A program made the translations under genes and the position numbers. DNA of 42,892 nucleotides from Sulfurimonas sp. GTDB taxonomy: Bacteria; Campylobacterota; Campylobacteria; Campylobacterales; Sulfurimonadaceae. The notes below the pieces were generated by a model that was given only the letters and a program-made list of their open reading frames with translations, made no database searches and was not told the DNA's origin. Positions 14,596 through 27,118 of the stretch are shown here, one piece after another. Numbering within the stretch: position 1 is the stretch's first letter; every line of letters starts with the position of its first letter. The stretch is from the NCBI GenBank assembly GCA_027019325.1, contig JALUWT010000113.1:1-42892 (forward strand). Reading direction: 5' to 3'.

Positions 14596-14961
14596 ATGTA
14601 TTATATAAATGATAAAGAATATACCTGTCCGGTATCAGTAACATTGGATATTTTTAATGACAGATGGAAACTTGCAGTTATTTGGTATCTGCTTGAAGAT
14701 GATAAAAGGTTTAAAGAACTGAGTGAAAATATTAGTCAAATAAGTCAAAAAACACTGACCATTAAACTTAAAGAACTTGAAGAAAAAAATATAATTAATA
14801 GAGAGGTTTATGCACAAATACCTCCTAAAGTTGTCTATTCGCTCACGCCGATTGGAGAAAAACTTAAACCAATGCTAATGGATATGTATGAGTGGGGTAA
14901 AGAGTATGTTAGTGAAAATGGAAAAATAACACAAGATGAGACTTCTAAAATCTCCAGTTGA
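14596..14961 (+). CDS. HxlR family transcriptional regulator
   Basis: A 121-residue winged-helix regulator. It shows the HxlR signature: the N-terminal cysteine C11 (EYTCPVSVTLDIF), the segment DRWKLAVIWYLLEDDKRFKE, LSENISQISQKTLTIKLKEL as the recognition helix region, and VVYSLTPIGEKLKPML in the wing. In YodB and HypR the equivalent cysteine senses quinones, diamide or hypochlorite by thiol modification. It is transcribed away from the ADH-nitroreductase-OYE operon across 131 bases that contain a YodB-like dyad, so autoregulation and repression of the operon are the simplest model. The RBS GAAGGA is well placed. Confidence 0.92.
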   Translation: MYYINDKEYTCPVSVTLDIFNDRWKLAVIWYLLEDDKRFKELSENISQISQKTLTIKLKELEEKNIINREVYAQIPPKVVYSLTPIGEKLKPMLMDMYEWGKEYVSENGKITQDETSKISS

Positions 14962-15041: not shown

Positions 15042-15386
15042 ATGATATTGGGGAAATGCCCTTATTGTGAGGATGGTGAGATTGAGGTGCGTGACAAAGA
15101 GGTACGAGGGAAAAAAGTAAAACTTTATGCCTGCTCAAACGCACACTGGACAACAGAAGATGGTGAGATGTTTGAAGTGACACAGGAGTCTACATGTAAC
15201 TTTAGAATTTGGCAGAATTCTTTAGCAAAATATGGAAAATGGCTTTCCTATAAAGAGGTGCGTGAGCTGCTTAGCGAGCAGGGGTTAGAAGTTGAACTAC
15301 TGAGTAAAAAGTATGGTAAAAAAATCTACTACACCAAAACTATTATTTTAAATGAAGAGTATGGAGTAAGCGTACTTTGGGATTAG
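15042..15386 (+). CDS. Small zinc-ribbon protein of unknown function
   Basis: A 114-residue soluble protein. The N-terminus has a zinc-ribbon pattern similar to that of type IA topoisomerase tails: GKCPYCEDGEIEVRD with C5 and C8, then YACSNAHW and a later STCNFRIWQ. The C-terminal half (residues about 63-114, WLSYKEVRELLSEQG) resembles the topoisomerase C-terminal repeat-type segment that binds nucleic acid. It has its own TATAAT at 15009-15014 and a good RBS (TAGGAGAG). It is convergent with the metallophosphoesterase gene with a 10-base gap. Function unknown; nucleic-acid binding is an inference. Confidence 0.75.
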   Translation: MILGKCPYCEDGEIEVRDKEVRGKKVKLYACSNAHWTTEDGEMFEVTQESTCNFRIWQNSLAKYGKWLSYKEVRELLSEQGLEVELLSKKYGKKIYYTKTIILNEEYGVSVLWD

Positions 15387-15396
15387 AGAAGTCTAA

Positions 15397-16146
15397 TTAT
15401 GATAGTGTGAAAACAGGAATCTCACTGTTTGCTTTATATCGAAGACCAATCCCCCAATATCCTAGACCGTTTGTTACATAGAGGAGGGTTTTGTTCTTTT
15501 TATACAGACCGGAAAGATAGGGTTGAAACATCTTCACGAGATAAGTAAAAGGAAAAATTTGTCCGCCATGGGTATGACCACTGAGTTGTATGTCCACTCT
15601 TGCATCTTTGATATGTTCTATATCTTTTGGTTGGTGTGCGAGTAAAATGGTAAATACATTTTTATCTATTGTAGAGAAAAGTTCGTTAAGAGCTCTTTTG
15701 TGCCCTCTTAAAAAACTATATCTGTCACTTACTCCAATCAGTTGCAATAACTGACCTCGTATTTTTAAGTGAATGCGTCTATTATCTAAGCAAAGAATAT
15801 CATTTTCTTCTAGAATTTTTTGTAGTTTTTTTGTTCCATAAAATATATCGTGATTACCGGTAACATAGTAAGTAAGCGCATCTATGTTTTTAAAAATTTC
15901 CAGTTGTTTTTTAAGTTTGCTGGCATTACATTCAATGACATCCCCGGTAAAAACTACTAAATCAGGACACCTTGCATTAATTTGTGCTACAAGAGATTGT
16001 AGATAAGATAGAGAGACTCTTGGATGTAGATGTAGATCTGAGAGTTGAATTATCTTTATACCTTGAAGTGAATCATCAAGAGTTTGTGGGTGTAATGCAA
16101 TCGTTTTAAAAGGAAAATATTTGAAACCTCTCTGTATTTTGTCCAC
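15397..16146 (-). CDS. Calcineurin-like metallophosphoesterase (YkuE/YaeI-like)
   Basis: A 249-residue phosphoesterase with the complete dinuclear-metal motif series: QLSDLHLH (D-x-H), VVFTGDVIE (GD-x-x-E/D), VTGNHDIFYG (GNHD), LLAHQP and SGHTHGGQIFP (GHTHGG). The last motif plus the closing segment YVTNGLGYWGIGLRY is typical of the YkuE/YaeI subgroup, thought to act on UDP-diacylglucosamine or related lipids at the membrane. The usual N-terminal membrane segment of that subgroup is absent or very short here. Its start lies about 110 bases from the divergent response-regulator gene, and that intergenic space contains two regulator boxes. Confidence 0.9.
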   Translation of the reverse strand: MDKIQRGFKYFPFKTIALHPQTLDDSLQGIKIIQLSDLHLHPRVSLSYLQSLVAQINARCPDLVVFTGDVIECNASKLKKQLEIFKNIDALTYYVTGNHDIFYGTKKLQKILEENDILCLDNRRIHLKIRGQLLQLIGVSDRYSFLRGHKRALNELFSTIDKNVFTILLAHQPKDIEHIKDARVDIQLSGHTHGGQIFPFTYLVKMFQPYLSGLYKKNKTLLYVTNGLGYWGIGLRYKANSEIPVFTLS

Positions 16147-16159
16147 ACTGCACCCTTTT

Positions 16160-16233
16160 TCTTCATTGAATCTTCATTTTGATACTGTAGTATTTTAATA
16201 TGAAGATTTAATGAAGATTTTCAATGATATAAT
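16160..16233 (+). promoter_or_regulatory. Response-regulator box pair and promoter before the 11-gene locus
   Basis: Two 17-base boxes flank this region. TCTTCATTGAATCTTCA is on the plus strand at 16160-16176 and TCTTCATTAAATCTTCA is on the minus strand at 16201-16217. Each contains two TCTTCA half-sites with an 11-base period, the direct-repeat geometry used by OmpR/PhoB-type regulators. A TATAAT at 16228-16233 lies 10 bases after the second box. The same 17-mer occurs again at 20369-20385 before the ABC permease gene, so an autoregulated regulon is likely. Confidence 0.75.
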
Positions 16234-16257
16234 CAAAAATAATAAAATGAGAATACA

Positions 16258-16929
16258 ATGAATATACTTATAGTAGAAGATGATAAGGATAGTGCCACAT
16301 TTTTAGAAAAAACCCTTGTAGCTGAAAAGCAGAGCGTAGAGCTTGCGTATAGTTATAAAGAGGCAAAAGAATGTATTGAAGAGAATATCTATGCCCTTAT
16401 TTTACTCGATTGGAACTTGGGTGACGGTAGCGGATATAAGCTCTTGCAAGAGTGTCGAAAAGAGTTGGCTCCAGAAGTCTCAATTATTATGATAACAAGT
16501 GAAAATGACACGGAGGAAATGGCTGCTGCTCTTGATACCGGAGCAGATGATTATATTACAAAACCCTACTCCATGGTGGAACTCTTAGCGCGCATAAGAG
16601 CTGTTTCACGCAGAGAAGCCTCTCAAAAAAGCTCTGTGGTGGAAGTTGGCAGACTGCAACTCAATATGCTCAAATATGAAATTCTTTTAGACAATACTCC
16701 TTTGGACTTAACGACAACAGAGTATGACCTTTTAAAATTGCTACTGCAAAATAACAATGTTATTTTGACACGCTATCAGCTCAATGAATCGATTATGAAA
16801 GATTTTGCCTCTTTTGGTAATAGCAATCTTGTGGATGTGCATATTAAAAATATTCGTAAAAAACTTGGTGAATATAATATTATTCAAACGGTACGTGGAA
16901 TCGGTTATACTCTTAAAGTTGAAAAGTAG
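16258..16929 (+). CDS. OmpR/PhoB-type response regulator
   Basis: A 223-residue DNA-binding response regulator. The receiver domain (1-115) has the acidic pair near E7-D9, the phospho-acceptor D51 (LLDWNLGDGSG), the switch threonine in IMITSEND and the lysine in DYITKPYS. The winged-helix output domain (about 128-220) ends with VDVHIKNIRKKLGEYN and VRGIGYTLKVE. It is the first gene of a tight operon with an outer-membrane barrel, a PstS-like protein and a sensor kinase, its probable partner. Boxes resembling Pho boxes stand at its own promoter and at the downstream ABC permease gene, so it probably controls both. Confidence 0.93.
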   Translation: MNILIVEDDKDSATFLEKTLVAEKQSVELAYSYKEAKECIEENIYALILLDWNLGDGSGYKLLQECRKELAPEVSIIMITSENDTEEMAAALDTGADDYITKPYSMVELLARIRAVSRREASQKSSVVEVGRLQLNMLKYEILLDNTPLDLTTTEYDLLKLLLQNNNVILTRYQLNESIMKDFASFGNSNLVDVHIKNIRKKLGEYNIIQTVRGIGYTLKVEK

Positions 16930-16935
16930 CTCTTT

Positions 16936-17943
16936 ATGAAAAAAATATTTTTACTTTTCATCTGTTTGTTGACAATAGTTTCTGCCAAAGAGTATGAACT
17001 TGGTGAAGGCTATCAGCTTGGTGATACTCCTCTATATGTTGGAGGCTATTTTTCTCTCGATTATGCCAGTTACAGCAAAGGTGATTTGCAAAAAGTAAGT
17101 TTGAACGATATGGCATTGCTAAGTTATGGCAGCTATCATAAATTTTCTTATATGGCAGAGATGGAGTTTAAAAACTACTATGTAAAAACATATGACAATG
17201 GTAAAACAACCACGACCAAAGATACAAAACTCTATGCTGAACGACTCTATGCGGATTATACGGCAAATGAAAATTTTATGGCACGTTTTGGAAAATATAA
17301 TTCTAATGTAGGGTATTGGAATCTTACCCCCATTAATGTCCTGCGTGACACAACATCCTCTCCTGTTACCGCAAGGGTGGTATTTCCTAAATATACGACC
17401 GGTATAGACCTGCAATATCATCTCTTCACGCAATCAGAAGTGAGTGTAAATATTACTTTGCAAGATAATAATTCGCTAGATGAAGCGTATAATAATTTTT
17501 ACATTAAAAAACATTTTGGTCTAGGTTTGGAGTATAGCTATGACAATCTCAGCGTAAAACTCAATGGAGGCTATTTTCATAAAAAAAATCATACACAAGC
17601 TTATGTTGATAACTACTATGGATACCTGAGCTTTCTTTATGATAATGATACTATAAAAGTGATGGGTGGACTTGGCCATAGAGATGACAACAGAGAGGAC
17701 GCGGTAAAACTTTCAACTTATCTGCAAGCAACATACGAAATCGCTTCACACCATTATCCGGTGCTTCGACTTGAGCATTATAATGCACAAATAGATATTG
17801 AGAATGGCATCAAAAAAGACACGAGTGCTGTTTTTGGATATACATATAGACCAGTGTATCCTGTAGCGTTCAAAGTAGAATACCAAGTGCACAGTAATAA
17901 AGCATTGGATAAATTCCTTACTTCTTTCTCGGTTATGTTCTAA
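16936..17943 (+). CDS. Outer-membrane porin-like beta-barrel protein
   Basis: A 335-residue exported protein with a short signal peptide (MKKIFLLFICLLTIVSA, then KEYELG) and a long barrel region. Barrel-like features are PLYVGGYFSLDYASY, the strand ARFGKYNSNVGYWNL, RARVVFPKYTTG-type strands rich in Tyr, Asp and Asn, and a final aromatic residue (SFSVMF). In other bacteria such porins occur beside small PstS-like proteins and sensor kinases; the substrate here is unknown. It starts six bases after the regulator gene. Its stop codon overlaps the next start by one base (TAATG), so it is translationally coupled. Confidence 0.85.
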   Translation: MKKIFLLFICLLTIVSAKEYELGEGYQLGDTPLYVGGYFSLDYASYSKGDLQKVSLNDMALLSYGSYHKFSYMAEMEFKNYYVKTYDNGKTTTTKDTKLYAERLYADYTANENFMARFGKYNSNVGYWNLTPINVLRDTTSSPVTARVVFPKYTTGIDLQYHLFTQSEVSVNITLQDNNSLDEAYNNFYIKKHFGLGLEYSYDNLSVKLNGGYFHKKNHTQAYVDNYYGYLSFLYDNDTIKVMGGLGHRDDNREDAVKLSTYLQATYEIASHHYPVLRLEHYNAQIDIENGIKKDTSAVFGYTYRPVYPVAFKVEYQVHSNKALDKFLTSFSVMF

Positions 17944-18359
17944 TGAAAAGATTTTTTTTATTTCTAAGTTTTTCTGCATTACTGCTACAAGCTGACAGCT
18001 ATGTACTTATAGCAAATAAAGATCTGAAGCTGACAAATATTTCGCGTCTTTATCTCAAACAGATTTATCTCAAAAAGCATCGTTATTTTAGGGATGTGAA
18101 ATTAATTCCTGTAAATTTAGATGTACAAGATGCTGCTCGAAAATCTTTTGAAAAAGAGATATTAAAGATGTCAAGAAATCGTTTGAGAGAATTTTGGATA
18201 ATGCAGCACTACGAAGGTGTACGACCTCCGCTTGTGATGCACTCTTCTAAAAGTATGATAAAATTTGTGGCAAAGATCAAAGGGGCTTTGGGCTATATTC
18301 CCGAGAAAAACTTTTCATCTCAAGAAAATGTAAAAATCATATACAGGTGGAGTGATTAA
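17943..18359 (+). CDS. Small PstS-like periplasmic substrate-binding protein
   Basis: A 138-residue protein with a signal peptide (MKRFFLFLSFSALLLQA) followed by a single PBP-like domain: YVLIANKDLKLTNIS, then RLYLKQIYLKKHRYF, LIPVNLDVQDAARKSFEKE, LREFWIMQHYEG and GALGYIPE. This is the short family often annotated as a phosphate ABC transporter substrate-binding protein, much smaller than true PstS. No Pst permease genes lie nearby. Sandwiched between a porin and a sensor kinase with one-base TAATG overlaps on both sides, it is more likely a ligand-sensing partner of the kinase than a transport protein. Confidence 0.82.
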   Translation: MKRFFLFLSFSALLLQADSYVLIANKDLKLTNISRLYLKQIYLKKHRYFRDVKLIPVNLDVQDAARKSFEKEILKMSRNRLREFWIMQHYEGVRPPLVMHSSKSMIKFVAKIKGALGYIPEKNFSSQENVKIIYRWSD

Positions 18360-20368
18360 TGCAAAAAAAACTCCTTACTGCCTTCTTAATCGTAGGACTT
18401 GTTCCTTTTGCTATTGTTTATCTCTATCTTATTTTTTATGCGCATGATAAAATTACCCAAAATATTCTCTCAAGAGAGTTTGAAAATATTCAAAGTGTCA
18501 TCTCTACAGCACAAAACAGACTTCTGCGTGCTGATAAAGAACTACAGTTTCTTTCAAAATTAGATGTTGTTGATGATGTTGTCGTTGGTGATATTGATGA
18601 ACGACTTGCAAGACTGCTATTGCAAAAGAAAAAAGATATGCATGCTCAGTTGGAGTTTGTCGTTATAGATCCCTCTTTTAACTATGTCACATCTTCTGCA
18701 GAACATAATCTTCAAGGCCGCTACAAATATTTACATGCATTGCAAGCGGCAGTAAAAAAAAAGCAGAATTTTTTTATGCAAGGACATAATCTCATCTTTT
18801 ACACAAAGCTCTACGCCAGTTTCAATCACAAATTTTTGGGTTATATGCTTCTAGAATACAATCTGAATAATCTTGCAAATCTGACAGCCAAGGGGAAAAA
18901 TATTTATGGTTATTTCTTGAATGAAAAAAGTCATTATATTGTAGGAGAGCATAAGCAAAGTCATCTGCTGCTTCAAGGCCGAGAAGGCAGTCTGATAACA
19001 AAGAAAAACCTCATAGTCTATAAGCGGCTTCATTCACATTTTTTAAAGGGCTGGTACTATGTAAATGTTATTAAAAAAGAAAAAGCACTCGATTTTTTAT
19101 ATGATTTTATAAATTTTATGAGTTTAATGCTGCCCATCGCTGTTTTACTGATTGTCCTTGTCTCTTTTGTGAGTGCTAAAAAAATCATTCGACCATTGCA
19201 AAAGCTGACAGAGAGTGTCTTGGATATTACACACAAAAAAGATTATAAACATTCCATTCATTTGGATGTAAAAGATGAGATCGCAAAACTAAGCGATGCT
19301 TTTAATGAACTTCTAGCAACCACTGACACCGCTTTGGAAAAACTTGAAACAGAGAATAAACTGCGTCTAAAGCGTTTTATAGAGCTTATTAGTATTTTCA
19401 ATGCTATTATTCAGACAAAAAGTGAAACAGAGTGCATAGAACTTTCCATAGAAAAAATTCAAGATCTAACAGATGATAAGCCCATTTATTTTGAAAAGAA
19501 AAAGAGTGAAGGCGCACAGATATATGTAACAAATTTTGAGAAAAATACGAAAGAGTGTTATGGTACGCTTCTCTTTGACAAAGAAGATTTTAGTGAAAAT
19601 GAGTTGCGATTTTATACCTCCATTGCAACGATGATATCACTACAGCTTGAGAGAATTCGACTTATTAATGCAACCACACAGGCATCACGGGCGAAATCGG
19701 CATTTATCTCCAATATGAGTCATGAATTGCGTACACCGTTGAATGCTATTATTGGATTTACACAGTATCTTATTACTTATGAAAAGTTAAAACAGGAGCA
19801 GATGGAAATAATCGGCAATATTGAAAATTCGGCAAGCTATCTTTTAGAGATGATTAACGGTATTTTGGACATCGCCAAGATAGAAGCAGGGAAGATGGAA
19901 CTCCATTATGAAACGGTAGATATAAAAGAGCTTCTTTTTAATGTTGTAAGTATGCTCACGCCGCTGGCGGAACAGAAAAATCTCACAATTTCACTTGATA
20001 TGCAAAGATGTAAGGAAGAAAGCATCTTTACAGATCCCTATTTTGTGAAACAAATCATTATAAATCTTCTCTCAAATGCTATAAAATTTACAGAAAAAGG
20101 CGGAGTTGAAATTCGACTGGAAACATTGGATACAAAAGAGTTGCAACTGAGCATTAGTGACACAGGCATAGGTATTGAAGCAGAGGATGTAGAAAAACTG
20201 TTTCAAGATTTCGCACAGCTAGATCATAAAATACAAAAAAAGTACAAAGGAACAGGATTGGGACTCTCTCTTAGTAAAAAACTTGCCAAACTTTTACAGG
20301 GTGATTTGCTTATACAAAGTGAAGGAATAGAAAAAGGCAGCAGGGCAATTTTAATCCTTCCAATCTAA
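18359..20368 (+). CDS. Membrane sensor histidine kinase with periplasmic sensor domain
   Basis: A 669-residue kinase. TM1 covers about residues 6-27, a periplasmic Cache-like sensor about 28-250, TM2 about 252-272 and HAMP about 273-325. A GAF-like segment spans roughly 340-435, and the HisKA motif has H455 (ISNMSHELRTPLNAIIGF). The ATPase domain carries LLSNAIKFTEKG, SISDTGIGIEAEDV and GTGLGLSLSKKL. There is no fused receiver. It closes the four-gene unit with the OmpR-type regulator, porin and PstS-like protein, and its stop is followed at once by another copy of the regulator box. Its ligand may be presented by the PstS-like protein, which is inference. Confidence 0.93.
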   Translation: MQKKLLTAFLIVGLVPFAIVYLYLIFYAHDKITQNILSREFENIQSVISTAQNRLLRADKELQFLSKLDVVDDVVVGDIDERLARLLLQKKKDMHAQLEFVVIDPSFNYVTSSAEHNLQGRYKYLHALQAAVKKKQNFFMQGHNLIFYTKLYASFNHKFLGYMLLEYNLNNLANLTAKGKNIYGYFLNEKSHYIVGEHKQSHLLLQGREGSLITKKNLIVYKRLHSHFLKGWYYVNVIKKEKALDFLYDFINFMSLMLPIAVLLIVLVSFVSAKKIIRPLQKLTESVLDITHKKDYKHSIHLDVKDEIAKLSDAFNELLATTDTALEKLETENKLRLKRFIELISIFNAIIQTKSETECIELSIEKIQDLTDDKPIYFEKKKSEGAQIYVTNFEKNTKECYGTLLFDKEDFSENELRFYTSIATMISLQLERIRLINATTQASRAKSAFISNMSHELRTPLNAIIGFTQYLITYEKLKQEQMEIIGNIENSASYLLEMINGILDIAKIEAGKMELHYETVDIKELLFNVVSMLTPLAEQKNLTISLDMQRCKEESIFTDPYFVKQIIINLLSNAIKFTEKGGVEIRLETLDTKELQLSISDTGIGIEAEDVEKLFQDFAQLDHKIQKKYKGTGLGLSLSKKLAKLLQGDLLIQSEGIEKGSRAILILPI

Positions 20369-20402
20369 TCTTCATTAAATCTTCACAAAACTCTCTTATA
20401 CT
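20369..20402 (+). promoter_or_regulatory. Third response-regulator box and promoter before the ABC permease gene
   Basis: TCTTCATTAAATCTTCA (20369-20385) starts on the base after the kinase stop codon. It is an exact copy of the box at 16201-16217, in the opposite orientation relative to the downstream gene. The -10-like TATACT lies at 20397-20402, 11 bases after the box, so the second half-site falls near the -35 region. That is the layout of activated Pho-type promoters. The ABC permease ATG follows at 20426 with a GAGGAGGG ribosome-binding site. Confidence 0.75.
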
Positions 20403-20425
20403 TCAAACTCCAAAGAGGAGGGTGA

Positions 20426-21508
20426 ATGTTATTAGCGACTGTATTGAAGGCGATGCGGGCAAACAGAGTGAAGACTGCTTTGATTTATCTCAGTCTTGTT
20501 GTGACCATCAGTGCTATTTTTCTCATCAGTGCCATCTCTCATGGTGTTATCTCGATGTATTCCAATATTTTGCAAAGTAGCGGTGATATCATCGTGACAC
20601 AAAAAAATATTTCCGATACTTTTTTTAGTAATGTAGACACGCAATTGATGCCAAAGATTGAAAAAATCGCAGGGGTGAAGCGTGTTTCCGCGCTTATTGT
20701 CGGAGCAAGTCCTGTGGAGTCTCTGCCCATCGTTGCTGTTTATGGTGTTTCAAAAAATCTTTATTCAAGATATAAATTGGAATCTGGACATTATCCTAAA
20801 AAGGGTGAAGTGCTTGTCGGTACTTCCATTTACAAAGCATTGACAAACAAAAAAGAGCCGCATATTGCCAATAAAAGTTTTGTACTTAGCGGTGTTTTTC
20901 GTAGTGAAATCGGTTTTGAAAATGGTGGCGTGGTTATGAATTTAGAAGATGCCGCTGCAATTTTTAATAAGTCGGCTTCTATGCTCTATGTCAATATAAA
21001 TCTTGCACAAAATTCTCAGACGATTATGAAATATATTACACAACTCGATGCAGACATTGCCGTAAAATCAACGAAAGACTTTGTGAATCACTACAACCAG
21101 TTTAAAATTATCAACACTTCATCTTCGCTTGTTTCTCTCATTGCTTTTGTGATGGGGCTTATCGCTATTGGCTCAATTATGAGTATTACGGTACTGCAGA
21201 GAAAAGATGAGTTTGGCATTATGAAAGCGTTAGGCATCTCTTCTGCCAAAATTGCTTCACTCATTGTTTTAGAAGGAGTTGTCACAGGATTTTTTTCTTT
21301 TGTGAGTGCATATTTTGTCTCTGTTGTAGCTCTGGAATTTATAAAAAACATTGACAAATTCCAAGGTTATGTCAGTGGCAGCATCGATGTGCAGCTTGCG
21401 GTCTCTGTTTTTATCGCAACCGTAGTTATGACGGTTTTAGGCTCTTTAATTCCAGTGTATACAGCTCTTAAAGTCGATCCTGTTACGCTCATTCAAAGAG
21501 GAAATTAA
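20426..21508 (+). CDS. FtsX/MacB-type ABC transporter permease
   Basis: A 360-residue inner-membrane permease of the FtsX/LolC/MacB class. TM1 is near residues 19-40, followed by a large periplasmic domain (about 45-235). Three C-terminal helices lie in LVSLIAFVMGLIAIGSIMSI, VVTGFFSFVSAYFVSVV and VFIATVVMTVLGSLIPVY. The signature sequences RKDEFGIMKALGIS (coupling helix) and the final VDPVTLIQRGN are typical of the family. Such transporters handle lipoproteins, peptides or toxic compounds from the inner membrane by a mechanotransmission mechanism. It pairs with the ATPase two bases downstream. No MacA-like adaptor or TolC was seen. Confidence 0.9.
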   Translation: MLLATVLKAMRANRVKTALIYLSLVVTISAIFLISAISHGVISMYSNILQSSGDIIVTQKNISDTFFSNVDTQLMPKIEKIAGVKRVSALIVGASPVESLPIVAVYGVSKNLYSRYKLESGHYPKKGEVLVGTSIYKALTNKKEPHIANKSFVLSGVFRSEIGFENGGVVMNLEDAAAIFNKSASMLYVNINLAQNSQTIMKYITQLDADIAVKSTKDFVNHYNQFKIINTSSSLVSLIAFVMGLIAIGSIMSITVLQRKDEFGIMKALGISSAKIASLIVLEGVVTGFFSFVSAYFVSVVALEFIKNIDKFQGYVSGSIDVQLAVSVFIATVVMTVLGSLIPVYTALKVDPVTLIQRGN

Positions 21509-21509
21509 G

Positions 21510-22148
21510 ATGATGATAGAAGCAAAATCACTCACACACAGATATGGCAGTGATGAGGCTTTACATGCTGTTAATTTTTCGGTGCAAGAGGGAGAATTTG
21601 TAGCGATTGTAGGTGAAAGTGGTAGTGGAAAAACGACCCTGCTCTCTATTTTATCAACACTCTTAACACCTACACAGGGTAGTGTGGAGATTATAGGAAA
21701 TGACACAAAAAGAATAAAGAAAATAGACAACTTTAGAAGAAAAAATATCGGATTTATCTTTCAATTTCACTATCTCATCAACTATTTAACGGTGTATGAA
21801 AATATTACACTTGCCATAGATAAAAAAAACAGAGCCGGCGTACAAACGCTTTTAGAAGAACTCGGAATAGAATCACTGCGTGAGCGCTATCCGTATGAGA
21901 TTTCAGGTGGGCAGAGACAAAGAGTTGCCATTGCAAGGGCTTTGGCAAATCATCCAAAAGTAATTTTTGCGGATGAGCCTACAGGTAATTTAGACTCAAA
22001 AAACTCAAGGAACGTTTTTGCGCTTTTAAAGAAAATAGCAGAAAGAGACCACATAACAGTTGTCGTGGTGACACACGACTTGCAACAGGCGAAAAACGCC
22101 GATACTATTTACGAGATGAATGATGGACATATTTCAAACTACAATTAA
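21510..22148 (+). CDS. LolD/MacB-type ABC transporter ATP-binding protein
   Basis: A 212-residue ATPase with Walker A GESGSGKTT (about residues 36-44), the Q-loop in FIFQFHYLINYLTVYEN, signature motif EISGGQRQRVAIARAL, Walker B VIFADEPTGNLDS and the H-loop VVVTHD. It belongs to the LolD/MacB class that partners FtsX-like permeases. Only one permease gene is adjacent, so the transporter is probably a homodimer of the permease with two ATPase copies. Its end overlaps the start of the CcoN-like gene by 29 bases, which implies coupled translation. Confidence 0.93.
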   Translation: MMIEAKSLTHRYGSDEALHAVNFSVQEGEFVAIVGESGSGKTTLLSILSTLLTPTQGSVEIIGNDTKRIKKIDNFRRKNIGFIFQFHYLINYLTVYENITLAIDKKNRAGVQTLLEELGIESLRERYPYEISGGQRQRVAIARALANHPKVIFADEPTGNLDSKNSRNVFALLKKIAERDHITVVVVTHDLQQAKNADTIYEMNDGHISNYN

Positions 22149-23694
22149 AAAACATTTTTATATTTCACTGCTCTTTTTTATCATAGGGCTCTCTTTTGGA
22201 TTCCTTTATTCTTTGAACCTTTTAGGCATTACAATTAATTCACAGATGCTTAATCCTACAAATGTACGTGCCGTGCATCTCTCTTTGATGCTCTACGGTT
22301 TTATTCCTCTGATGCTTTCATATCTTCCATTTTTATTGTTGCACAAAGATTTGGGTATGAACAAAAAAGCACTCAAATATTTGGAAATCTATTCTCTGTT
22401 TTGGTATGTTTTTTTGAGCGTAATGACACTCAGCTTGCTAATGGGTGTGACACGCGGTTTGGCATTTTATGATTTTCATTACAGTCTCAATGGTATTTTG
22501 GCATTTGCAGGGCTGTTTTATATTTTAGGTCTGTACGAATACATCAAAGAGTATGCAAAAAAGCCCTTATGGGTTTCAATCAGTCTGAAAGTAGTTGTCG
22601 CAGCTCCTTTTGTCCTGCTTTTTTTGATGAACCCTGTTGTAGGTCAGGTGGGGTCAACCGTAAGCGGACCACATGGCGACAATACACTTGGTATGAGTTT
22701 GGCACTTATTCCTGTTTATTATCTCATTATAAAGTTACTCTCTACAAACAGATTTCGCGCAAGATGGCATATTTTTTGGATTATTCCGGCTCTTTTTTAT
22801 CTGCTTTCTGTGTTGCACAGACTTTTTATGGGACCTCTGACATATGGAGAAGAGTGGTTTTTTCAATGGCTGACATTTTTATATATTCCGCTCATGTATC
22901 GATGGTACAAAGATGCCGTAATACCAAAAGAGGCAAAATTTCTTCTACTTATATCGATAAGTGCTTTTTTATTTGTGGATGTTGAAGGCAATATCTTATT
23001 CATCGAGTCTATTCGATGGATTTTTCACAGAAACGATCTTGTAGTAGCGCACGCACATATCGCTATGGGTGTAGGTGTTTTGTTTATGGCACTGAGTATG
23101 TACACAGACATTATAAAAAAACTCTACACCTCTTTCTTTATAAAACAATATCTCTTTGGAATGCTGGGTATTTTTACTGCATTGACGCTTAACGGTTTTG
23201 TGGAAGCGGGCTATATTACATTTGATACTGTAACATTATGGACAATACGCAGCATAAGCGGACTCTTCATCATTTCTTCATGTTTCTATCTTATACTTTT
23301 GGACATAAAGTTATCAAACTTGCAAATCTACAATTTGATTGGGATTGCAAATGATGGCTTTGGCGGTCTTTTTCTTATTCTGTCGGCAAGTTATCTCTAC
23401 CCGCTATTGGGGTTTTATTTTGACGGCGTGTATGCGTATGTTGTCTTTGGATTTGTAATGTGTACAGGACTGTTGCATTATTTGGCAATGCGTTATACAG
23501 ATTCAGAGCAGATTTTAACCTTTGCGACGGCAATTATAAGATTTTTTATAGGTGGTATATTCTTATCGCTCTATCTTTCACATAAGCTTGGTTATGAAGC
23601 ACTTGTGATTTTTGGATTTGATTTTATGTATGCCTCTGTATTTATTATCTGGTTTTATAGACCAGAGTATGTTCAAAGGGCAAAAAATGTTTAG
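22120..23694 (+). CDS. Orphan CcoN-like heme-copper oxidase homologue with altered CuB site
   Basis: A 524-residue integral membrane protein with about 12-14 helices, aligned by eye to the catalytic subunit CcoN of cbb3 oxidases. The heme ligands are present: H53 in VRAVHLSLMLYGF (low-spin heme) and the HAH pair H311/H313 in VVAHAHIAMGVG (high-spin and low-spin heme). One CuB ligand is kept at H185 (GPHGDNTLG). The adjacent His-His pair of TM7 appears as H233-R234 (SVLHRLFMGP), so one CuB ligand is replaced by Arg. No ccoO, ccoP or other oxidase subunit lies nearby. It is therefore unlikely to be a normal terminal oxidase; sensing, NO chemistry or a heme-only role is possible. Confidence 0.75.
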   Translation: MMDIFQTTIKKHFYISLLFFIIGLSFGFLYSLNLLGITINSQMLNPTNVRAVHLSLMLYGFIPLMLSYLPFLLLHKDLGMNKKALKYLEIYSLFWYVFLSVMTLSLLMGVTRGLAFYDFHYSLNGILAFAGLFYILGLYEYIKEYAKKPLWVSISLKVVVAAPFVLLFLMNPVVGQVGSTVSGPHGDNTLGMSLALIPVYYLIIKLLSTNRFRARWHIFWIIPALFYLLSVLHRLFMGPLTYGEEWFFQWLTFLYIPLMYRWYKDAVIPKEAKFLLLISISAFLFVDVEGNILFIESIRWIFHRNDLVVAHAHIAMGVGVLFMALSMYTDIIKKLYTSFFIKQYLFGMLGIFTALTLNGFVEAGYITFDTVTLWTIRSISGLFIISSCFYLILLDIKLSNLQIYNLIGIANDGFGGLFLILSASYLYPLLGFYFDGVYAYVVFGFVMCTGLLHYLAMRYTDSEQILTFATAIIRFFIGGIFLSLYLSHKLGYEALVIFGFDFMYASVFIIWFYRPEYVQRAKNV

Positions 23695-24679
23695 TGTTTT
23701 TTTGATACTTTTTGTATTTGCAGAGCTCAGTTTTTATCTCCTTATCGCGCAGACTGGTGTGGTGGAAATATTTCATTCTGATATTTTTTCAATTATGTAT
23801 CTGCCTATAGGTGGCATAATAGGAACATATTTGAATGTATATATTCCTTTTAAAACAGACCATAAAGCCATCGTTTTACTCGCCCTACAAATGTTTACAA
23901 CATTTTTTTATCCAGATTTTAATGCTGTGACACTCTTTCTTCTTGGTTTGAGTGTCGGGGGCATTTCTCCTATTATTATTCAAACCTTGAAAAAGGCAAC
24001 ACTCATTGATTTAGGTGTTGCCCTTGGTCTTTCTTATACCTTTTCAACACTGTTTTTTAATACAAACCCCATGCACAGAGAAATACTCGGGCTTTTTTTG
24101 AGTGCTGTTGCCATGTTTGGGTATCTATTTTTGCAAAGAAAAAAAATTACTACAGAAGCTCTTTGTTTTAATAAATTTTATTCTTACCCTCTTTATTTAA
24201 TGGTGATTTGGGTATTTTTAGATTCATCACTCTTTGAGACACTCTCACGCGATGCAATGATGGCTATTTGGAGAGGTGGTTTTAGTACTGAAATTATTCT
24301 TTTTCACCTTTTAGGTGTTGTTGCTGCAATCAGTATAAGAGTAGAATATTCACTTAAAGCACTCTTTATTACTCTGCTTTTTGTAGTATCTTATCTCTCT
24401 TATTTTATGCATGAAGCACTTTTGCTCAGTGTTGTCTACCCCTTCGTTATATCTTATTATAATATTGTGATTCTGCAGAGTCTCATTAAAGTAAAGTCTT
24501 TGAAAAATATAGGATTTTTTATGGTTTTCATAGGTTGGATGGCTTCTGGTGCAGGACTTATGGTGGCATTACAGGGTTTCATTCAATACGTTCCGATTCT
24601 GATATTGACAATACTCTTCTTTGATATTGTTAAACAATTAAATTTTACAAAAGGAGTTCTCTTATGGTTAAGAGAATAA
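23687..24679 (+). CDS. Multi-pass membrane protein of unknown function
   Basis: A 330-residue protein with about 10 hydrophobic segments and few charged loops. I chose the ATG at 23687 because AAAGGG sits just upstream. The in-frame upstream start at 23612 would lie deep inside the previous gene. Recognisable stretches are MYLPIGGIIGTYLNVYIPFK, FLLGLSVGGISPIIIQ, and a final LTILFFDIVKQLNF. The helix pattern is loosely transporter-like, but no family was recognised. It overlaps the CcoN-like gene by eight bases and the YceI gene by 16 bases, so it is probably a structural partner of one of them. Confidence 0.75.
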   Translation: MFSVFLILFVFAELSFYLLIAQTGVVEIFHSDIFSIMYLPIGGIIGTYLNVYIPFKTDHKAIVLLALQMFTTFFYPDFNAVTLFLLGLSVGGISPIIIQTLKKATLIDLGVALGLSYTFSTLFFNTNPMHREILGLFLSAVAMFGYLFLQRKKITTEALCFNKFYSYPLYLMVIWVFLDSSLFETLSRDAMMAIWRGGFSTEIILFHLLGVVAAISIRVEYSLKALFITLLFVVSYLSYFMHEALLLSVVYPFVISYYNIVILQSLIKVKSLKNIGFFMVFIGWMASGAGLMVALQGFIQYVPILILTILFFDIVKQLNFTKGVLLWLRE

Positions 24680-25197
24680 TGTTTTTATTGGCACTGCCGT
24701 TAGCAGTTTTTGGAGGCAATTTAAGCCTGACAAATGGGCTTATTCAAGCACATACAAAAGTTTTTGGAGATGCATCCATTAATCCGTCTGTGAAAAATAT
24801 TCAAGCAGATGTATCGATGCAAAACAATGCTGTTGAGTCTTTAAAAGGAATTTTATCGTTTCCTATTATAGATTTTAAATCATCTGAGAGGGATAGAGAT
24901 GAACATATGCAAGAGATGTTTGCGATGAAAACATATCCAAATATCACTTTGCAAATCAATAAAGTTCGCGCAAAAAATAAGCACTATGTGATAGAAGGTG
25001 TTTTAAACATGCACGGGATTGAAAAGCCGATTGATATTAACAGCTCAATTGTACAAAATGGTGACAGTGTTGCAATCAATGCAAACTTTAGTGTCAATGT
25101 CAGTGATTATGGCATGGAACCCCCTTCACTCCTCTTTTTCACAGTAAGAGACAGAGTTGACATCAATGCCTCTATTACACTGAAAACGGAAGATTAA
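24664..25197 (+). CDS. YceI family periplasmic protein
   Basis: A 177-residue exported protein with a signal peptide (about residues 1-17, MVKRIMFLLALPLAVFG). A YceI lipocalin-like barrel follows: DASINPSVKNIQADVSM, LKGILSFPIIDFKSSERDRD, MFAMKTYPNITLQI and VLNMHGIEKPID. Family members bind polyprenyl chains such as quinone-like isoprenoids in the periplasm and are often found beside membrane cytochromes. The strong RBS AAAGGAG supports the ATG at 24664; another ATG at 24679 is possible. A quinone or isoprenoid link with the CcoN-like protein next door is inference. Confidence 0.87.
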   Translation: MVKRIMFLLALPLAVFGGNLSLTNGLIQAHTKVFGDASINPSVKNIQADVSMQNNAVESLKGILSFPIIDFKSSERDRDEHMQEMFAMKTYPNITLQINKVRAKNKHYVIEGVLNMHGIEKPIDINSSIVQNGDSVAINANFSVNVSDYGMEPPSLLFFTVRDRVDINASITLKTED

Positions 25198-25211
25198 ATA
25201 AAGGTTTTTGC

Positions 25212-25230
25212 TTAATTTCGCTAAAATTAA
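25212..25230 (+). promoter_or_regulatory. Short dyad and -10-like sequence before the PAS kinase gene
   Basis: TTAATTT-CGCTA-AAATTAA has perfect seven-base arms and lies four bases before the ATG of the kinase gene. A TAAAAT at 25222-25227 overlaps it. It could be an internal promoter with an operator or simply AT-rich sequence. The gap to the preceding YceI gene is 36 bases, so read-through is also possible. Confidence 0.3.
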
Positions 25231-25233
25231 TCT

Positions 25234-26448
25234 ATGTTACAACAGTATCAAGAAGCGATTGAAAACAGTAATATTGTCTCTAAAACCGATGTGAACGGCA
25301 TCATCACTTTTGTTAATGATGAGTTTTGCAAGATTTCGGGTTACACGCAAAAAGAACTCATCGGTAAAAACCACAATATAGTCCGTCATCCTGACGTTCC
25401 TGCTTCAAAATTCAGACTACTCTGGAAAACCATCAAAGCTAAAAAGATCTTCAAAGGAACTGTGAAGAATCTCGCAAAAGATGGCTCTACTTTTTATGTC
25501 AACACGACTGTGATTCCGATTTTGGATGAAAATGGGGAGATCGAAGAGTTCATCGCTATCCGATATGATGTGACAAAAGAGGTCTTTTACAGAGAGTCAC
25601 TCGAAAAAAAAGAGAAAGAGCTTGAAGAGCTCAATGAAGAGCTTGAAAAGAGAGTCGAAGCAAAAACAAAAGAACTCAAAGAACTCAATGCAACACTTGA
25701 GAAGCGCGTAAAAGAGGAGATTGCTAAGAACGAAGAGAAGCAAAAAGTGATGTTTTGGCAGTCCCGTTTTGCCTCTTTAGGTGAGATGCTTGCCAACATT
25801 GCCCATCAGTGGAGACAACCGCTTACGGAATTAAACCTAATCCTTTTCAGCCTCAAAAAAGCTGCCCTGCGTGAGGAGCCTGAAGCGGTAGAAACCCTCT
25901 ATGGAGAGAGTAAAGCCCTCATACAAAATATGTCCAATACCATAGAAGATTTTTCAAACTTTTTCAAACCGGACAAAGAAAAACACCACTTTATGCTGCG
26001 TGGGAGCATAGAAGAGGCACTGCACATTTTAAAGCGAGTCCTCAAACGCGATATGATTCAAGTCAAAACTAGCTATGAAGATGCGATGGTTTTAGGCATT
26101 AGTAATGAGTTCACACAGGTCATCGTCAATCTTTTAAAAAATTCCCGTGATGCTTTTGTAGAAAATGGTCTGTTGTTGCGTGAGATAAACATCAGCGTGA
26201 GCAAGAGTGAAGATTTTGCTTTTGTTGTTGTAGAAGATAATGCTGGAGGAATTAAAGAGAAGGAGCGGTATAAAATATTTGAGCCCTACTTTACGACAAA
26301 GCATACATCTCAGGGAACAGGACTTGGGCTTTTTATGTCTAAAATGATTTGTGAAAAAGGTTTTAATGGCTCTCTTGATGTGAGTTCAAAAAGAGGGCTG
26401 ACCCGCTTTAGCATTACAATTCCACTGGAAGTCAATAATGAAAAATAA
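25234..26448 (+). CDS. Soluble PAS-domain sensor histidine kinase
   Basis: A 404-residue cytoplasmic kinase with no membrane segment. The PAS domain (about 6-115) contains NIVRHPDVPASKFRLLWKT and AKDGSTFYVN. This matches the Aer-type PAS that binds FAD: R51, H52 and D54 correspond to residues important for flavin binding in Aer. A long charged coiled coil (about 118-170) leads to the H-box with H191 (ANIAHQWRQPLTELN), and the ATPase domain ends with VVEDNAGGIKEKERYKIFEP and GTGLGLFMSKMI. It overlaps the next response regulator by 11 bases. A redox-sensing role is inference from the PAS type. Confidence 0.88.
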   Translation: MLQQYQEAIENSNIVSKTDVNGIITFVNDEFCKISGYTQKELIGKNHNIVRHPDVPASKFRLLWKTIKAKKIFKGTVKNLAKDGSTFYVNTTVIPILDENGEIEEFIAIRYDVTKEVFYRESLEKKEKELEELNEELEKRVEAKTKELKELNATLEKRVKEEIAKNEEKQKVMFWQSRFASLGEMLANIAHQWRQPLTELNLILFSLKKAALREEPEAVETLYGESKALIQNMSNTIEDFSNFFKPDKEKHHFMLRGSIEEALHILKRVLKRDMIQVKTSYEDAMVLGISNEFTQVIVNLLKNSRDAFVENGLLLREINISVSKSEDFAFVVVEDNAGGIKEKERYKIFEPYFTTKHTSQGTGLGLFMSKMICEKGFNGSLDVSSKRGLTRFSITIPLEVNNEK

Positions 26449-27118
26449 GTTTTTAAAAACACTTCGGGTCTTGCTTGTTGAGGATGAGGTCAAGCTCTCC
26501 ACACTCCTTAAAAATGCTATAGGAGACAGTTTTTATAAATTTAGTGTTGCTAATGACGGCGAAGAGGGTTTAGCGCTTTTTAAAAAGCGCACCCCTGACA
26601 TTGTCATTACAGATATAATGATGCCTAAAAAAACAGGTCTGGAGATGGCAAAAGAGATAAAAGCCATAGATGCGAATGTGCCTATCATCATATTGAGTGC
26701 TTTCTCTGAGACAGAGAAGTTTTTAGATGCCATTGATGTGGGTGTTGTGAAGTATTTTATTAAGCCTTTTGACCCTGATGAGCTCTTGGAGTACATAGAA
26801 TCACTCGAAGCAGTTTTTCCAGAGCGTTCTATAGTATTGCAAGATGGCTTTACGTACAACAAGACAAAAAAAGCTCTTTATAAAAAAAACCGTTATATTA
26901 CACTGACAAAAAAAGAGAAAGATTTCTTAGCTCTGCTTATAGATAATTTTAGACAGGGCATGCTTATTGTAAGTGATGAAAAAATTAAAGAGTTGCTTTG
27001 GAAAGAGCAGGTAAGTGATGAACGGCTTCGAACTTTTGTGCGGCGTTTTAGAGATAAAACTTCAAAAGAGTTGATTAAAAATGTAAAAGGAGAAGGCTAT
27101 CAAATTATGATAGCCTAA
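26438..27118 (+). CDS. Response regulator with winged-helix output domain
   Basis: A 226-residue regulator. The receiver has VLLVEDEVKL, the phospho-acceptor D59 (DIVITDIMMPKKTG), LSAFSETEKF at the switch position and YFIKPFDPDEL. The C-terminal DNA-binding domain (about 140-224) ends with RLRTFVRRFRDK and VKGEGYQIMIA. It starts inside the PAS-kinase gene, so the two proteins form the obvious pair. It is the last gene of the co-directional locus. Its stop is followed at 27121-27140 by a palindrome with perfect eight-base arms (TATACAAA and TTTGTATA) around TTAT, which overlaps the end of the convergent peptide gene. Confidence 0.93.
   Translation: MKNKFLKTLRVLLVEDEVKLSTLLKNAIGDSFYKFSVANDGEEGLALFKKRTPDIVITDIMMPKKTGLEMAKEIKAIDANVPIIILSAFSETEKFLDAIDVGVVKYFIKPFDPDELLEYIESLEAVFPERSIVLQDGFTYNKTKKALYKKNRYITLTKKEKDFLALLIDNFRQGMLIVSDEKIKELLWKEQVSDERLRTFVRRFRDKTSKELIKNVKGEGYQIMIA

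Follow-up and report, generated by a model that had tools for sequence, protein, structure and literature searches.

Ubiquinone-8 is among the isoprenoids that YceI proteins bind, and in Burkholderia the YceI protein BcnA and the b561 cytochrome LcoA limit lipid peroxidation, LcoA having been proposed to re-reduce quinone (PMC9113575). A YceI gene is also present in the stretch of Sulfurimonas sp. DNA analyzed here (42,892 nucleotides, hereafter the window), where its neighbors encode a membrane protein related to COX1 and an ABC transporter. Gene order in relatives indicates that ten genes, from the phosphodiesterase MPP to YceI, were inserted as one block, a horizontally moving island of two modules. 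We read the whole island as an envelope-lipid redox system under two-component control, a reading to which we assign a probability of about 0.4.

The island (15387 to about 25215, 9.8 kb, no strand) was delimited by comparison with the empty site of L116, L117, L118, L119 and L121, in which gene 15042-15386 is followed, after 18 nt, by the PAS kinase PASHK and the response regulator RR2, and then by nrdG-nrdD. The window's flanks present the same gene order, but with 9.8 kb interposed between gene 15042-15386 and PASHK. The join preserves the stop codon, and at its right end the native 18-nt leader is retained, with TTTCGCTAAAATTAATCT ahead of the start of PASHK. The G+C content of the island is 35.3%, versus 37.5 and 38.3% in the flanks. 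In L003, another Sulfurimonas MAG, the order MPP-RR1-OMP-PstS-HK1-FtsX-ATPase-COX1 is repeated at a different site, with an rpsU-like sequence as upstream neighbor, and in the COX1-like tree the window, L003 and L004 group with family f7 (98/91), apart from other members of the same genus. The window's MAG is fragmented and rated 7.7% contaminated, as would suit an assembly artefact joining two genomes; such an artefact is nevertheless extremely unlikely, given that the native flanks on both sides are undamaged and correctly ordered, that the join preserves both the stop codon and the leader, and that an independent MAG shows the same island order. G009 (L114:8165-9329) carries a different insert, of 1.1 kb, in this position, again separating the 15042-type gene from PASHK, hence this site may be an insertion hot spot. 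Nearby, outside the island, the window encodes an HxlR-type regulator (14596-14961) resembling the redox-responsive RrpB of Campylobacter.

A preliminary description of this DNA had proposed a single locus of eleven co-directional genes, starting at position 16160 and bracketed by two two-component systems. The gene run itself is confirmed, as consecutive plus-strand ORFs occupy 16258-27118 with gaps of -29 to +57 bp when the polytopic membrane protein MP is started at ATG 23687, which is the start in its homologs, rather than at TTG 23612. Domain searches also bore out the OmpR-type response regulators, the FtsX/MacB_PCD permease, the ABC ATPase, COX1, YceI and the PAS kinase. The borders of that unit were misplaced: it omitted the divergent MPP gene, which belongs to the island, it included PASHK-RR2 (25234-27118), core genes unrelated to the rest, and what lies at 16160 is a regulatory repeat and no gene start. 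About 60 relatives have a PASHK ortholog (63-90% identity), and most of them lack the cassette; where such a relative carries both, PASHK and the cassette are on different contigs or far apart, never having been seen near each other. Given that cassette-free relatives have the pair 18 nt after the 15042-type gene, and that elsewhere it is unlinked to the cassette, this comparison identifies PASHK-RR2 as an ordinary Sulfurimonas core pair outside the island unit, which it merely adjoins in the window. The PAS domain of PASHK is Aer-like (4e-24 to the aerotaxis receptor), which fits the earlier suggestion of a flavin-PAS kinase; the suggested link of this kinase to the cassette did not hold.

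One module of the island comprises four plus-strand genes: the response regulator RR1 (16258-16929; Pfam Response_reg and Trans_reg_C), the porin OMP (16936-17943), a short PstS-like solute-binding protein (17943-18359) and the sensor kinase HK1 (18359-20368). RR1, with a receiver and a winged helix, and HK1, with two TM segments, HAMP, HisKA and HATPase, have the composition of an OmpR/PhoB-type two-component system. The barrel and PstS-like proteins have no match singly and are matched through relatives, which supported both earlier calls: 11-12 of 23 relatives match a Porin_O_P/BBP2-type porin, and the profile of the PstS-like protein matches PDB PstS at 5.5e-7. In each of the 20 loci examined, their genes occur together, as an obligate pair, with a kinase gene behind them. 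Most pairs are distant from the cassette, often accompanied by the multiheme MtrC-like cytochrome c74, and the pair adjoins the cassette, in varying orientation, in the window, L003, L004, G264 and G074. The set of porin, PstS-like protein, kinase and regulator is a module of its own that often adjoins the cassette. The c74 product is a lipoprotein encoded together with such modules (L060:3981-5753, L097, L100-L103, L111), and c74 carries the same promoter box as the cassette. An apparent HK-FtsX fusion in L003 was rejected because of a run of N at that position.

The other module is a five-gene cassette, all on the plus strand in the window: an FtsX/MacB_PCD-type permease (20426-21508), a LolD-like ABC ATPase (21510-22148), a COX1-like (CcoN/NOR-related) membrane protein (22120-23694), MP, which has no assigned family (23687-24679), and YceI, a periplasmic isoprenoid-binding lipocalin-like protein (24664-25197; Pfam YceI 5.2e-19, PDB YceI 2.4e-14). 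Of 298 Campylobacterota genomes, 35 gave a match to the COX1-like protein, a single one of these being weak and partial (7.9e-4). The MP profile matches exactly the other 34, each time adjoining the COX1-like gene, of which MP is a strict partner. Among 200 genomes of the window's family, 59 have the COX1-like gene. The earlier expectation that the CcoN-like, membrane protein and YceI genes travel together was upheld by neighborhood comparison across Campylobacterota: the FtsX-ATPase-COX1-like order is fixed in 36/36 loci, with MP in 35/36 and YceI in 34/36, counts inflated by common descent, the tree containing at least six separate cassette lineages. The co-linearity of the cassette genes is far beyond chance. 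Two orders exist, FtsX-ATPase-COX1-MP-YceI and MP-YceI-FtsX-ATPase-COX1. Beyond the phylum, the search for the COX1-like protein covered plasmids, with no match, and one pattern-based contig scan reaching close relatives only. Searches of the open-access literature turned up no account of the cassette, and this five-gene envelope machine is apparently undescribed. An in-frame MP-YceI ORF in L004 was rejected as a fusion because YceI retains its own start and signal peptide. In G056 (L048:7723-8617), the MP gene is interrupted by an insertion of about 895 bp.

The cassette's neighbors include MPP in 27 of the 36 loci and c7 in 19, together with frequent regulator and kinase genes. In the window MPP, a YaeI/LpxG-like calcineurin-type phosphodiesterase, is divergent (15397-16146, minus strand; Pfam Metallophos 6.8e-14) and scores 3.7e-32 against NCBIfam YaeI and 1.1e-26 against LpxG, both below cut-off. 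The nine loci without MPP carry c22, a NAPE-phospholipase D homolog (7e-40), and MPP and c22 occur together in none. The c7 product (L035:11777-12226 and homologs), absent from the window, is a Cys-less thioredoxin-like periplasmic protein with no family match and no match in a PDB profile search. In ten species (family f10; L047:5759-6445, homologs L048-L056), MPP is followed by a truncated kinase of about 225 aa with HAMP and HisKA, missing the ATPase domain and with no regulator adjoining.

The transporter genes admit another reading, in which FtsX/LolD and the kinase form a Bce/Mac-type detoxification or lipoprotein trafficking system whose transporter would release envelope-damaging compounds or lipoproteins, with YceI and the cytochrome as downstream envelope-stress proteins. 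The LolD- and MacB-like scores of ATPase and permease point in this direction, as do the two-component genes frequently adjoining the cassette. Yet the ATPase scores 206 bits against LolD, where the curated NCBIfam cut-off is 307.75, and the permease 40 of 362 bits against lolCE; this single short permease, in place of the two of LolC/E, is under every curated NCBIfam cut-off. There is no MacA or TolC partner, and the strict COX1-like/MP pairing would be left unexplained. We therefore consider this reading unlikely.

The Pfam COX1 score of the COX1-like protein (3.6e-8) is just below cut-off, and 21 of 23 relatives match, the best at 5.6e-12; PDB profile searches gave no match for either this protein or MP. 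HMM-HMM alignment against the true CcoN of relatives places RxxH53 at the low-spin heme histidine and H311/H313 at the HxH pair, with the EG and H..D motifs also retained. At the CuB site, in contrast, GHN of TM6 is replaced by GDN and HH of TM7 is absent, such that the three CuB/FeB histidines are missing in all 44 aligned rows, which represent 43 distinct loci, one genome being listed twice, as L004 and as L120. Invariant in the 44 rows are H53, H303, H311, H313, H453 and D187, and H185 is counted with H453 and H303 among the further invariant or nearly invariant histidines. The predicted structures of the COX1-like protein and MP reached a pLDDT of only 42-45 and were not used, so the CuB argument is a sequence alignment of distant homologs; on this alignment, loss of the CuB ligands is highly probable. 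Given that the heme histidines are kept and those of CuB are missing, the protein is most likely a diheme protein without a copper site, and probably no oxidase, which makes the earlier "heme-copper" label misleading.

Hence, although clear COX1/CcoN homology and the retention of all heme ligands and of the EG and H..D motifs would be expected of an active terminal oxidase or NO reductase, and of a respiratory or NO-detoxifying cassette, the missing CuB/FeB histidines make this a very doubtful alternative. The cassette also has no subunit II or cytochrome c gene, and a normal CcoN gene is present elsewhere in the same genome. Heme ligands retained without CuB, together with the additional histidines, would suit a heme-based sensor or a heme/quinone carrier scaffold as well, with the ABC transporter moving heme. 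This is improbable in our assessment, as the cassette includes neither a heme-binding periplasmic protein nor a TonB system, and its partner is the isoprenoid-binding YceI.

The regulatory evidence comes from a promoter box. Direct repeats placed at a fixed distance before a -10 element are typical of PhoB/OmpR-activated promoters, and the Campylobacter jejuni DccR box reads TTCAC-N6-TTCAC. In the MPP/RR1 intergenic region, TCTTCAT direct repeats with an 11-bp period occur as an inverted pair, which yields a box and -10 toward RR1 (TTCATTGAATCTTCAT-N10-TAGTAT, 16162-16193, plus strand) and another toward MPP (TTCATTAAATCTTCAT-N10-TACAGT, 16184-16215, minus strand). A third precedes the cassette (TTCATTAAATCTTCAC-N10-TATACT, 20371-20402, plus strand). 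The 2.0-Mb genome contains three exact copies of TCTTCAT-N4-TCTTCAT, all of them within the island; with one mismatch there are eight occurrences, the additional island match being the FtsX promoter, and those outside the island lie inside genes or have no gene after them. The full pattern TTCAT-N6-TTCAT-N10-TAnnnT occurs six times in the genome, four within the island and two outside (C43, C81), versus none for the reversed control. At 23266-23297 (plus strand), within the COX1-like gene, a box plus -10 is a weak candidate for an internal promoter of MP-YceI and may be a coincidence of codons; the box lies at the same codons in L003 and L004.

In most lineages this rigid element stands ahead of the cassette: TTCAT-N6-TTCAT, with no more than one change, is found before the first cassette gene in f7, f10, f11, most of f4, L004 and the window, and TAnnnT lies exactly 10 nt after the box in 35 of 39 boxes, versus a background of 3.4%. 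The cassette promoter is the sole genome match in G008 and G276, other genomes having one to several more, and the box is specific enough for predicting cassette control in several families. Most other-type Sulfurimonadaceae cassettes have no box. In G292, the genes preceding the cassette contain two more full promoter elements (L035:4202 and 4976), which may point to an extended regulon. We infer that RR1 is the box-binding protein, and say so with caution because some box-carrying lineages have no adjacent regulator, or one that shares only about 35% identity with RR1. As the DNA element is common to both modules, the sensor module probably controls the cassette. Fixed-geometry boxes upstream of RR1, MPP and FtsX make plausible the control of the ABC/heme module by the regulator, as the preliminary description had suggested; in its sensor-to-module model, the adjacency of the porin/PstS-like/kinase/regulator set to the ABC and heme/isoprenoid module also stands, and the linkage to the PAS kinase does not. 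Taken jointly, the cassette's conservation, the island borders and the box geometry are conclusions we hold with great confidence on these genome comparisons.

A b-type cytochrome beside YceI, an ABC transporter of lipid-handling type and interchangeable hydrolases resembling lipid phosphodiesterases together suggest an envelope lipid redox system, whose cargo, electron flow and physiological role we infer as follows. The porin would admit a solute to be bound by the short PstS-like protein; HK1 would read the bound solute and phosphorylate RR1, which would bind the TTCAT-N6-TTCAT boxes located 10 nt ahead of three -10 elements, those of its own operon, the phosphodiesterase and the cassette, co-activating all of them. 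The FtsX/LolD-type transporter would mechanically lift a lipid from the inner membrane and pass it to YceI in the periplasm; this cargo would most likely be an isoprenoid quinone or else a damaged lipid. Menaquinol would be the electron source, the CuB-less COX1-like cytochrome and MP delivering the electrons to the cargo lipid, and the phosphodiesterase would trim the lipid substrate. Oxidised envelope lipids would thereby be repaired or reduced, an outcome analogous to that of the LcoA-BcnA pair. Also weighing against this explanation, c7, although a partner in 19/36 loci, is absent here, and in the known system YceI pairs with b561, not with COX1 proteins. If true, the explanation would account for an operon that is conserved in a large bacterial phylum, with no description in the literature searched, provide a heme-copper oxidase relative with a role other than O2 or NO reduction, and offer a testable control circuit (regulator, box and three promoters) for an envelope lipid system. 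More tentatively, and with considerable doubt, a CuB-less branch of the heme-copper oxidase superfamily may have been recruited in Campylobacterota as a non-respiratory quinol:lipid electron carrier, working with an FtsX-type ABC extractor, MP and YceI in what would be a new, regulated envelope-lipid redox machine, carried from genome to genome as an island.

In comparison with LcoA-BcnA (PMC9113575), the island likewise encodes a YceI lipocalin beside a membrane b-type cytochrome, with re-reduction of the bound isoprenoid proposed for both, yet this cytochrome has a COX1 fold and matches COX1 only, with no adjacent b561, and the island adds an ABC transporter, MP, a phosphodiesterase and two-component control. 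With CcoN/NorB, the C-family heme-copper oxidoreductases, the COX1-like protein shares homology, the RxxH and HxH heme motifs, EG and H..D, but it is without the three CuB/FeB histidines and cytochrome c subunits, and has other partners. Like the type VII ABC systems LolCDE, MacB and FtsEX, the transporter combines an FtsX-domain permease with a LolD-like ATPase, whereas it has one permease, sub-cut-off NCBIfam scores and different operon partners. The island promoters resemble those of PhoB/OmpR type in their direct repeats with an 11-bp period, 10 nt before the -10 element. From the DccR box they differ in the half-site, which is TTCAT in the island, and in the target genes, with RR1 as the putative binding protein.
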